NCBI GenBank assembly: GCA_028873865.1
Contig: JAPPNI010000034.1
Location: 62,001 to 126,000, forward strand
DNA from: Chloroflexota bacterium
GTDB taxonomy: Bacteria > Chloroflexota > Dehalococcoidia > Bin125
Direction of reading: 5' to 3'
Length of the DNA: 64,000 nucleotides
Part shown: in pieces, positions 25,285-28,402 of the stretch
How the letters are laid out: every line of letters starts with the position of its first letter
Position numbering within the stretch: position 1 is the stretch's first letter
Notes under the pieces: model-generated
Database searches by the model: none
Told to the model about the DNA's origin: nothing
What the model saw: only the letters and a program-made list of their open reading frames with translations
Translations under genes and position numbers: made by a program

Positions 25285-25429
25285 GTCAGCATCCTCATCT
25301 GCGTCAGGGAAGTCGTCCTGCTGAAAATCCTAACGCGCCCCAACGATCTCCGTCCCCACCTCCGAGCGGGGACCAGCCCTGTGCCGGACATCTTCCCAAC
25401 CGCGAAGTCGTCAGTCCGGCGGCGCTCTT
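25285..25429. other. gene-less acs upstream region
   Basis: Between the acs start and the GIY-YIG gene there are 316 bases without a supported gene. The half nearest acs (25285-25429) contains nothing I recognise except a degenerate extra repeat unit near 25409. The rest is the 20-bp tandem array and one palindromic repeat, listed separately. The acs promoter must lie here, but I cannot place its -10 and -35 elements with confidence. Confidence 0.5.
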
Positions 25430-25548
25430 CCGTCAGTCCCGCGCTCTCTCCATCATTCCTGCCCCTGTCCGTCGTCCCAGCGCCCCCTCCGTCATTCCCG
25501 CGCCCCCTCCGTCGTTCCAGCGCCCCCTCCGTCATTCCAGCGCCCCCT
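25430..25548 (+). repeat. tandem array of 20-bp units
   Basis: About six head-to-tail units of 20 bases (one is 19), consensus CCGTCRTTCCMGCGCCCCCT, run at 25430, 25450, 25469, 25489, 25509 and 25529. The array continues directly into the palindromic repeat at 25549, whose first 14 bases (CCGTCATTCCCGCG) match the start of the unit. The later units are nearly identical and the earlier ones degenerate, as expected if units were added at the palindrome edge. Confidence 0.85.
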
Positions 25549-25581
25549 CCGTCATTCCCGCGTAGGCGGGAATCCATCCAG
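25549..25581 (+). repeat. palindromic REP-like element, copy 1 (CCGTCATTCCCGC family)
   Basis: 33 bases with a perfect 8-bp stem ATTCCCGC/GCGGGAAT (25554-25561 and 25566-25573) around the loop GTAG, followed by CCATCCAG. It differs by one base from two copies at 28204 and 28330. It lies 26 bases from the 3' end of a GIY-YIG gene and abuts the 20-bp tandem array on its other side. Confidence 0.9.
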
Positions 25582-25607
25582 AACCAACCTCGCGCTGGAC
25601 GACATCC

Positions 25608-25901
25608 TCACGCCAACTCCTCGAACAAATCCCTCCAGTCCGGATTCGACTCGAAGATGAGCCGGAACTTCCACGGTCGCTCCCACTTCTTCAACTGCTT
25701 CTCCCGCAGGATCGCTTGCTCCATGTCGTCGTGATATTCGTACCAGACCAACTGATCCAGACCGTGGCGCTTGGCGAAGCCGTCCACGAGGCGCTGCTTG
25801 TGGGTCCAGATGCGCTGGGGCAGATTGGATGTGACACCGACGTACAGCGTGCCCTTGGGCTTGTTCGTAATCATGTACACGGCGGGCTCGCGTCGCTGCA
25901 T
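25608..25901 (-). CDS. GIY-YIG domain protein
   Basis: 97 residues, a single GIY-YIG nuclease domain of the UPF0213/YhbQ-like type. The two signature strands are VYM (8-10) and YVG (20-22), the catalytic Arg is in LPQRIWTHK (Arg30), and the metal-binding Glu is in AILREKQLKKWERPWK (Glu67). A Tyr-Glu-Tyr-His strand (LVWYEYH) precedes it. Stand-alone proteins of this kind are widespread and poorly understood; DNA cleavage is presumed from the fold. GTG at 25910 is an alternative start. Its 3' end is 26 bases from a palindromic repeat of a family present three times in this window. Confidence 0.85.
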   Translation of the reverse strand: MQRREPAVYMITNKPKGTLYVGVTSNLPQRIWTHKQRLVDGFAKRHGLDQLVWYEYHDDMEQAILREKQLKKWERPWKFRLIFESNPDWRDLFEELA

Positions 25902-25959
25902 GGAGGGCACCCTGTATGGCGGAGTGGTCTAATCGAGGAGTGGTGCTCATCCCGATCGT

Positions 25960-26369: not shown

Positions 26370-27134
26370 ATGAAGATCTCATTCAGACGACGGCAGCGAG
26401 CCCTCAAGGTCCACGAACTCCGCCAGCAGGGACGCTCCCTGCGCAACATCGGTAAGCAGCTCGACATCTCGCACGCCACGGTCCTCTCCGACCTCAAGCT
26501 GATCGAGACCCATTGGAGCGAAGTCACCCAGGAGTCCGCCGACGACTTCCAGCTCGAGCAGTTCAGCCTGCTCCAGAGACGCCTGCGCGCGCTGCTCCAG
26601 CGCGACCTGCTCAAGGAGTTCGGCCGCATCACCCCGCAGGACTTCATCCGCATCTACGAGGCCCACAACCGCGAACTCGCCATCCTCCTCCGCGAGACCC
26701 GCCGTCTGACCGACCAGCTCCACCGCCGCGCCGAGCGCCGCGAACTCGAACCCGGCGATCTCCCCCCGGAACTCGACTTCCCCGAGGAAGAACTCGTTCC
26801 GGCGGCCAAAGCCGCCAAGTCCGCCAAGTCCGCCAAGTCCGCCGAGTCCGACAAGTCAACCAGGTCGGCCCGCTCGACCAGGGTGCCCGAGTCGACCAAC
26901 GCCCACCACGGCCTGCCAAAACTAACCAAACCTAACCACCCCAACCACCCAAATCCCCGCAAAACACGGCAATTCCCGCCACCGACCGCTCCGAAGAAAA
27001 AGTCTGACCAACCAGCCGACCAACCATCCGGCCAACCACCCGCACAACTGACCCCCGAACAACTCAACCGGGAGGCCGAAACCTTTCTCCGCAACTACAA
27101 CGGACAGGAATCGCACACCTCAGCTGCCCGCTGA
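26370..27134 (+). CDS. HTH DNA-binding protein with a simple-repeat, Pro/Asn/Gln-rich C-terminus
   Basis: 254 residues. The first 55 residues form a helix-turn-helix (LRQQGRSLRNIGKQLDISHATVLSDL) like those of resolvases, sigma factors or phage terminase small subunits. A charged helical region follows (about 60-135: LLQRRLRALLQRDLLKEFGR and RELAILLRETRRL), which could form a coiled coil. The C-terminal half is low complexity: a 9-bp DNA repeat encoding Ala-Lys-Ser units (26814-26858), then Asn-His-Pro and Asp-Gln-Pro runs. AAAGGAG precedes the start by 8 bases. A phage-derived origin is possible but no other phage gene is present. Confidence 0.6.
   Translation: MKISFRRRQRALKVHELRQQGRSLRNIGKQLDISHATVLSDLKLIETHWSEVTQESADDFQLEQFSLLQRRLRALLQRDLLKEFGRITPQDFIRIYEAHNRELAILLRETRRLTDQLHRRAERRELEPGDLPPELDFPEEELVPAAKAAKSAKSAKSAESDKSTRSARSTRVPESTNAHHGLPKLTKPNHPNHPNPRKTRQFPPPTAPKKKSDQPADQPSGQPPAQLTPEQLNREAETFLRNYNGQESHTSAAR
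26814..26858 (+). repeat. five 9-bp units inside the HTH gene
   Basis: GCCAAGTCC occurs three times in a row at 26814, 26823 and 26832, followed by the variants GCCGAGTCC and GACAAGTCA. The array is in frame and encodes repeated Ala-Lys-Ser. Because the period is a multiple of three, copy-number changes would lengthen or shorten the protein without a frameshift. Confidence 0.85.
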
Positions 27135-28171: not shown

Positions 28172-28203
28172 CTGGCCAACGGGATGCAAAGACATGAGCT
28201 GAT

Positions 28204-28236
28204 CCGTCATTCCCGCGAAGGCGGGAATCCATCCAG
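28204..28236 (+). repeat. palindromic REP-like element, copy 2
   Basis: 33 bases with the stem ATTCCCGC/GCGGGAAT around the loop GAAG (28209-28228) and the flanks CCGTC and CCATCCAG. It is an exact reverse complement of copy 3 at 28330-28362 and one base different from copy 1 at 25549. Together copies 2 and 3 form an inverted pair with a 93-base spacer in which I see no gene. Confidence 0.9.
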
Positions 28237-28329
28237 GAAGACGTCAGTTGGCAGTGCATATGGGTGCTCACCTCTTCCAGCTTGCGGGTCAGCCCGGTCT
28301 CAATGCTTGCCTGTTGCTCAATGGTTGTG

Positions 28330-28362
28330 CTGGATGGATTCCCGCCTTCGCGGGAATGACGG
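28330..28362 (-). repeat. palindromic REP-like element, copy 3 (inverted)
   Basis: Exact reverse complement of copy 2. On its outer side, the side that reads GACGG on the plus strand, a 20-bp tandem array begins, as at copy 1. The pair of inverted copies with a spacer is the organisation called a REPIN. Confidence 0.9.
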
Positions 28363-28402
28363 AGTAGTGGCGGGAATGACGGAGTAGTCGCGAGAATGAC
28401 GA
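28351..28402 (-). repeat. 20-bp tandem units at the REP edge
   Basis: CGGGAATGACGGAGTAGTGG at 28351 is followed by CGGGAATGACGGAGTAGTCG at 28371 and a partial unit at 28391. The first unit overlaps the palindrome edge. The period is 20, as in the array at 25430, although the filler sequence between the shared CCGTCATTCCCG cores differs. Confidence 0.85.

Follow-up and report, generated by a model that had tools for sequence, protein, structure and literature searches.

Stand-alone GIY-YIG nuclease genes and their cognate CGTC-REP palindromes: a probable RAYT/REPIN-like mobile unit

Among the described systems that combine a nuclease gene with palindromic repeats, the closest to the locus analyzed here is RAYT (TnpA-REP)/REPIN, in which, as in the present case, a small single-domain nuclease gene lies between inverted hairpin repeats that carry an unpaired tetranucleotide tag, gene-less inverted pairs occur across the genome, and the repeat type is matched to the nuclease paralogue. 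The differences are equally clear: RAYT is an HUH Y1 transposase (PF01797) and its repeats carry the tag GTAG, whereas the enzyme here is a GIY-YIG protein, the tag is CGTC, the stems are of 8-9 bp and mostly begin with AT, and the gene-less pairs enclose unrelated spacers of 26-202 nt. The repeats themselves resemble the CGTC-REPs defined by Di Nocera et al. 2013 (PMC3733652), a superfamily that includes Neisseria dRS3 and Rickettsia RPE-4 and RPE-6 and was stated to be without a dedicated transposase (PMC3733652). The same paper makes no mention of GIY-YIG genes (PMC3733652); RepRanger 2025 makes no mention of nucleases. We found no report tying GIY-YIG genes to REPs in a literature search whose reach did not include preprints and most subscription papers. 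The nuclease domains of the UPF0213-type GIY-YIG protein (1zg2), UvrC and Slx1 share the fold and catalytic residues of the protein described below; UvrC and Slx1 both belong to repair systems, and no REP partner is reported for either in the literature found. GIY-YIG homing endonucleases share with the unit described here the catalytic domain and the mobile setting but, unlike them, this unit has no DNA-binding modules and no intron or intein, and is flanked by hairpin repeats.

The window, that is, the whole 64-kb stretch of DNA analyzed, belongs to a genome of 2.8 Mb in 41 contigs (95% complete; denoted G000 below), whose nearest named relatives are Chloroflexota (Dehalococcoidia) MAGs. An earlier note on this DNA had described a 33-base palindrome in three copies, and the sequence confirms all of them: one at 25549-25581 and two forming an inverted pair at 28204-28362, with the left REP at 28204..28236 (+), a spacer of 93 nt at 28237..28329, and the right REP at 28330..28362 (-), a perfect complement of the left one. 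The pair extends to 34 nt with 100% complementarity (28203-28236 and 28330-28363, 93 nt between); the window contains no second inverted pair of exact 20-mers. The palindrome copies are one base apart (loop GTAG vs GAAG), and the formula, from tag to tail, is CGTC-ATTCCCGC-GWAG-GCGGGAAT-CCA. The single copy at 25549..25581 (+) lies on the 3' side of a GIY-YIG gene, with the tag at 25550-25553 facing away from the gene, an 8-bp stem (ATTCCCGC), a 4-nt loop and the tail CCA. The palindrome fits the published description of CGTC-REPs (CGTC-1, dRS3 type): the CGTC tag is unpaired and located at one end, the 8-bp stem begins with AT and is followed by the 4-nt loop and the CCA tail (ATTCCCGC-GTAG/GAAG-GCGGGAAT-CCA), and the element is multicopy and occurs mostly in inverted pairs. 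The strict pattern has 13 copies in this genome, at the low end of copy number, and up to 132 in relatives; the backwards control has 0 copies genome-wide. Tag, 8-bp stem, 4-nt loop and CCA tail are common to the window element and the CGTC-REPs of PMC3733652, inverted (HH) pairs predominate in both, and the hosts Azospirillum lipoferum, Sinorhizobium meliloti and Neisseria are common to both studies.

Two further components had been overlooked in the earlier note. Half-REPs of 20 bp (tag plus 5' arm) are arrayed in tandem at 25424..25562 (+), on the outer, tag side of the single REP, and two more tandem half-REPs, mirrored, lie outside the right REP of the pair (28363..28401, -) and are missing from the ortholog in the related genome G003; the latter two either originated recently here or were lost in G003. 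The REP type found at 25549..25581 also flanks the G003 ortholog of the GIY-YIG gene, where the 5'-side REP is intact; in the window this REP is lost, and the comparison of G000 with G003 points to ATGGCGGAGTGG at 25915..25927 as its probable remnant. The spacer at 28237..28329 showed no similarity to the GIY-YIG unit. In the Rfam search, the hairpin pair gave a single microRNA match below the threshold, which we judged to be due to chance. Between the single REP and the pair, an ORF at 26370-27134 with a helix-turn-helix-like start and a low-complexity tail is present, absent or inverted (G013) in the corresponding locus of the relatives. A second abundant palindromic repeat of the genus, unrelated to the CGTC-REPs (TCTCCCCCCGCGCAGCGGGGGGAGATGCCGAAGGCAGAGGGGGG; L034 1530-1580), is about 45-50 nt long and has very many near-identical copies.

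The stand-alone GIY-YIG nuclease gene (25608..25910, -; 100 aa) was identified as an ORF with a PF01541 match of 59.6 bits (cut-off 22.6), and its reported distance of 26 nt from the palindrome is correct. The protein retains an intact catalytic set (Y12, Y23, R33, H37, E70, N89), and these six active-site positions (Tyr, Tyr, Arg, His, Glu, Asn) show 98-100% conservation among 106 relatives. The AlphaFold2 model (pLDDT 91.8, pTM 0.84) is nearest to the solved folds of UPF0213 (PDB 1zg2), the UvrC GIY-YIG domain and Slx1, with modest scores (best E 0.007); Slx1 is a branched-DNA nuclease. The dN/dS value is 0.125 between the window gene and its G003 ortholog and 0.10-0.15 between GIY-YIG orthologues. 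Given the active-site conservation, the predicted fold and these dN/dS values, the protein is likely to be an active nuclease maintained by selection. The best matches in PHROGs are homing endonucleases; no relative of the protein was found in phage records.

The same genome encodes four small stand-alone GIY-YIG proteins as well as UvrC. Tagged palindromes of three REP types flank all four stand-alone genes, with ATTCCCGC at C15 (in the window) and C34, GCCCCCGC at C26 and ATACCCGCG at C39; there is no REP in the 1.9 kb of flank examined next to the uvrC gene (up to the contig end). The check proposed in the earlier note, namely, whether the palindromes are enriched at GIY-YIG genes, gave a strongly positive result. 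Among 80 relatives of the protein from GTDB genomes, which were picked by protein sequence alone and span Alpha-, Beta- and Gammaproteobacteria, Rickettsiales, Chloroflexota and one Bacteroidetes MAG, 58 of the 80 genes have a CGTC-tagged palindrome within 200 bp, compared to 57 of 805 control genes (OR 35, p 3e-40), the controls being all other predicted genes of the same loci, unmatched for intergenic position. Palindromes, defined by a perfect 8-bp stem and a GTC tag, reach a density of 4.3 per kb in the 200 bp upstream of the genes and of 5.1 per kb in the 200 bp downstream, vs 0.04-0.16 per kb at distances of 1-10 kb; the other intergenic DNA of these loci has 0.33 per kb. At least 6 of the 22 negative loci contain REPs with 7-bp stems, and the relatives without a nearby REP, about a fifth, belong for the most part to an adjacent section of the family. 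When a second set of relatives was analyzed, all 16 matches above 120 bits had a tagged palindrome no more than 250 bp away, compared to 3 of 10 matches at 80-120 bits; because of this difference, the association belongs to this GIY-YIG subfamily and not to GIY-YIG proteins in general. On the protein tree, the REP label requires 10 changes, compared to 19.3 in shuffles. In 46 of 55 cases, the nearest REPs on the two sides of the gene are opposite in orientation (27 tag-out, 19 tag-in).

Not only the presence but also the type of the REP is linked to the nuclease, matching the closest homologue in another species rather than the other paralogues in the same genome. In comparisons between species of the genus, the genes C15 and G003:C26, the products of which are 90% identical, have a common REP type, the tail included or nearly so; REP types are likewise shared between C34, G004 and G008:C12, between C26 and G014:C40, between C39 and G011:C17, and between G001:C14 and G008:C16. 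By contrast, paralogues within one genome, a comparison that holds the host constant, mostly differ in their REPs (three types for four genes in G000, three types for three genes in G008). Mantel correlations between protein and stem distances (rho 0.19 overall, with 2 of 500 permutations as high; 0.26, p 0.003, in Alphaproteobacteria; 0.57, p 0.001, in Chloroflexota) are partly due to shared ancestry, and some are inflated by horizontal co-transfer of genes. C39-type REPs are abundant in G008 and G009, and no C39-type nuclease was seen in these two genomes; REPs may outlive their nuclease.

Across 61 genomes, the presence of GIY-YIG genes tracks the presence of REPs (OR 13, p 1.6e-5; outside the genus, OR 14, p 6e-4), the REP counts being lower bounds since the pattern covers one stem family. 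Six genomes (G005, G010, G013, G025, G029 and G040) contain REPs without a detected GIY-YIG relative, possibly as a result of relic repeats, missed genes or incomplete assemblies. The association extends to hosts in which CGTC-REPs are well known. In two records of N. gonorrhoeae, a homologous gene resides inside a dRS3 array, with one dRS3 starting right after the stop codon, and CGTC-REPs are found near homologues in S. meliloti, A. lipoferum, Aeromonas caviae, Photobacterium and Sphingobium; the Rhizobium tumorigenes homologue has no CGTC-REP nearby. Two PLSDB entries labelled as N. gonorrhoeae plasmids (NZ_CP119140.1 and NZ_CP119142.1) are of about 2.17 Mb and look like chromosomes. The 26 GIY-YIG matches in G027 were considered as a case of self-amplification, and this was rejected, since the copies are bounded by IS-like terminal inverted repeats and not by REPs. 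They belong to a MITE of about 510 bp with imperfect terminal repeats (GGCTCTTTTTCATTTCAAGTGGGTAAA...; L187-L206), which contains a GIY-YIG gene and a REP pair and is present in about 18 or more copies, many of these at contig ends or with stop codons.

Comparison of related loci reveals filled and empty sites. The alignment of the C39-type units G000:C39 and G011:C17 extends from CGTC to GACG; their REPs match without a difference for 32-33 nt, and the flanks are unrelated. The site of the G011 unit is reduced to 0-22 bp in G001, G004, G005 and G010, is occupied by a REPIN in G003, and in G009 contains one double-tagged palindrome, CGTCATTCCCGCCTGCGCGGGAATGACG, which reads as if two REPs had been joined by their outer halves. 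The REPIN of the window is present in G000 and G003, and the junction is empty (11-16 bp) in G002, G009, G010, G011 and G013; the GIY-YIG unit itself, located between acs and a rhodanese gene, was found only in G000 and G003 among the compared relatives, and G002 is empty at this position. In A. lipoferum 4B, a REPIN-gene-REPIN cassette splits sufB-sufC and is absent from three congeners with flanks that are 94-95% identical. On Sphingobium plasmids, a REP-gene-REP unit lies beside fnrL, and in TomTYG64 and TomTYG74 a single fused double-tagged palindrome is found instead; similarly, Sinorhizobium K101 has a fused double-tagged palindrome in place of the split REP(+)/REP(-). S. meliloti Ak57 carries two tandem units with the same ends, one with a full gene and the other with only the last 30 or so codons; the truncated unit is, by its sequence, a REPIN made by internal deletion. 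Of the hallmarks of insertion sequences and MITEs, terminal inverted repeats with target-site duplication, the units show inverted hairpin ends; the compared flanks, at only 80-95% identity, differ too much for a target-site duplication to be read, and they yielded neither a precise duplication nor an exact junction of insertion. In one comparison (L073 vs L114), G001 and G008 have the GIY-YIG unit in opposite orientations within syntenic flanks, as though it had flipped between its inverted REPs. The possibility that REPINs in general are decayed GIY-YIG genes was rejected, given that a weak local-alignment signal was obtained in only 4 of 13 cases (p 0.005-0.025 against shuffles, uncorrected); the spacers of most REPINs bear no relation to the GIY-YIG unit, with S. 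meliloti being the clear case of a relationship.

Taken together, these observations suggest that the gene and the palindromes probably constitute one system, a GIY-YIG/CGTC-REP mobile unit that resembles RAYT/REPIN and employs an unrelated nuclease, with cleavage and transposition as its predicted activities. In the best reading, the unit is a segment of about 450-550 bp that encodes a stand-alone GIY-YIG nuclease between inverted copies of its own cognate CGTC-REP. This reading draws on sequence comparisons that show the association and its cognate specificity, the inverted flanks, the presence or absence of units and REPINs at conserved sites, the loss of the gene by internal deletion to leave a REPIN, the collapse of a REP pair to one double-tagged palindrome, and the constraint acting on the protein. 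The cognate nuclease would recognise the hairpin together with the CGTC tag, either as a single-stranded DNA structure or as a cruciform, in what we infer to be structure-specific recognition, and would cut at or near the hairpin tag, with the result that the unit itself, or whatever DNA lies between two hairpins of this kind, could be copied or pasted elsewhere. Single REPs and REPINs would then be non-autonomous derivatives and relics of the unit: internal deletion would give rise to REPINs, and collapse between repeated arms to single palindromes, the resulting states of both kinds being seen in genomes. The tandem half-REP arrays at 25424-25562 and 28363-28401 may be by-products of this cycle. 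The GIY-YIG unit of the window is then best read as one from which the 5' REP has disappeared, and the inverted pair (28204-28362) as a gene-less copy.

The alternatives differ mainly in the role that they assign to the gene. It could be a mere passenger, carried between REPs that are moved in trans by a RAYT or an IS transposase, a possibility favoured by the six genomes with REPs and no detected GIY-YIG gene and by the MITE of G027, evidently amplified by another transposase. However, the search for Y1_Tnp (PF01797) in the genome itself, 60 relatives and 27 proteobacterial genomes lends no support to RAYT as the mobiliser: the domain has no match in this genome and is absent from 17 of the 25 REP-bearing relatives and from 20 of the 27 proteobacterial genomes with the GIY-YIG/REP locus, one of these 20 being that of Bosea caraganae with 124 REP pattern matches. 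The presence of RAYT shows no association with that of REPs overall (p 0.37) and a weak one outside the genus (p 0.027). Furthermore, a passenger would not be expected to have its own REP type, nor such a broad distribution, and we regard this explanation as quite unlikely. Even more improbable, to the point of being hardly credible, is a purely regulatory role, with the REPs functioning as terminators or RNA stabilisers of the GIY-YIG and other genes and not being mobile. Hairpins do occur near both ends of the gene, and REPs can act on RNA (PMC3733652), but control genes in the same loci lack hairpins, the flanks are two-sided and inverted, and units and REPINs are gained or lost between relatives.

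A homing-like mechanism, although unlikely, deserves more serious consideration. Under this scenario, the target is a double-tagged palindrome (CGTC-stem-loop-stem-GACG). The GIY-YIG protein would cleave it in the middle, and repair of the break with a filled site as the template would bring in the unit and split the palindrome into two inverted REPs, which would be target halves and not transposon ends. The alternation between split REP(+)/REP(-) and fused palindrome at the three loci described above (Sphingobium TomTYG64/74, Sinorhizobium K101 and G009) is compatible with such a process, and the GIY-YIG domain is the catalytic part of many homing endonucleases, in agreement with the PHROGs matches. 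Nevertheless, units are found at unrelated sites that bear no sign of an earlier palindrome, some sites are truly empty (0-22 bp) and likewise contain none, and no intron or intein was seen; fused palindromes are equally expected as a product of deletion between two REP arms and, indeed, could form by slippage between repeated arms without any nuclease.

A mobile unit with a cognate nuclease thus remains the preferred reading, and the hypothesis of the earlier note that GIY-YIG proteins handle these repeats is supported: neither of the two outcomes that the note named as refuting it was obtained, since the palindromes are enriched at the genes and no RAYT accounts for them. Originally based on position only, the hypothesis can now draw as well on the finding that the REP type follows the nuclease and on the comparisons of units and empty sites; the protein would then cut or move the repeats. 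No better candidate than the GIY-YIG gene has so far emerged for the partner that CGTC-REPs, including Neisseria dRS3, have lacked. Going further, we lean slightly toward the view that these elements represent a new class of bacterial transposable elements: a stand-alone nuclease of the GIY-YIG type would move units with hairpin ends and would also act in trans on CGTC-REPs at large, dRS3 included, such that REP-mobilising nucleases would have arisen at least two times from unrelated folds.

CGTC-REPs comprise dRS3, of which the repeat arrays of Neisseria are made, as well as palindromes of Rickettsia and many Alphaproteobacteria. For each of these, the present analysis names a specific, very small candidate enzyme and its substrate, along with natural cognate and non-cognate pairs within one genome, which makes the question open to simple cleavage assays. 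If the proposed link holds, it would provide a role for a large family that is annotated only as 'GIY-YIG nuclease family protein', and would imply that REP-handling nucleases evolved more than once in bacteria.
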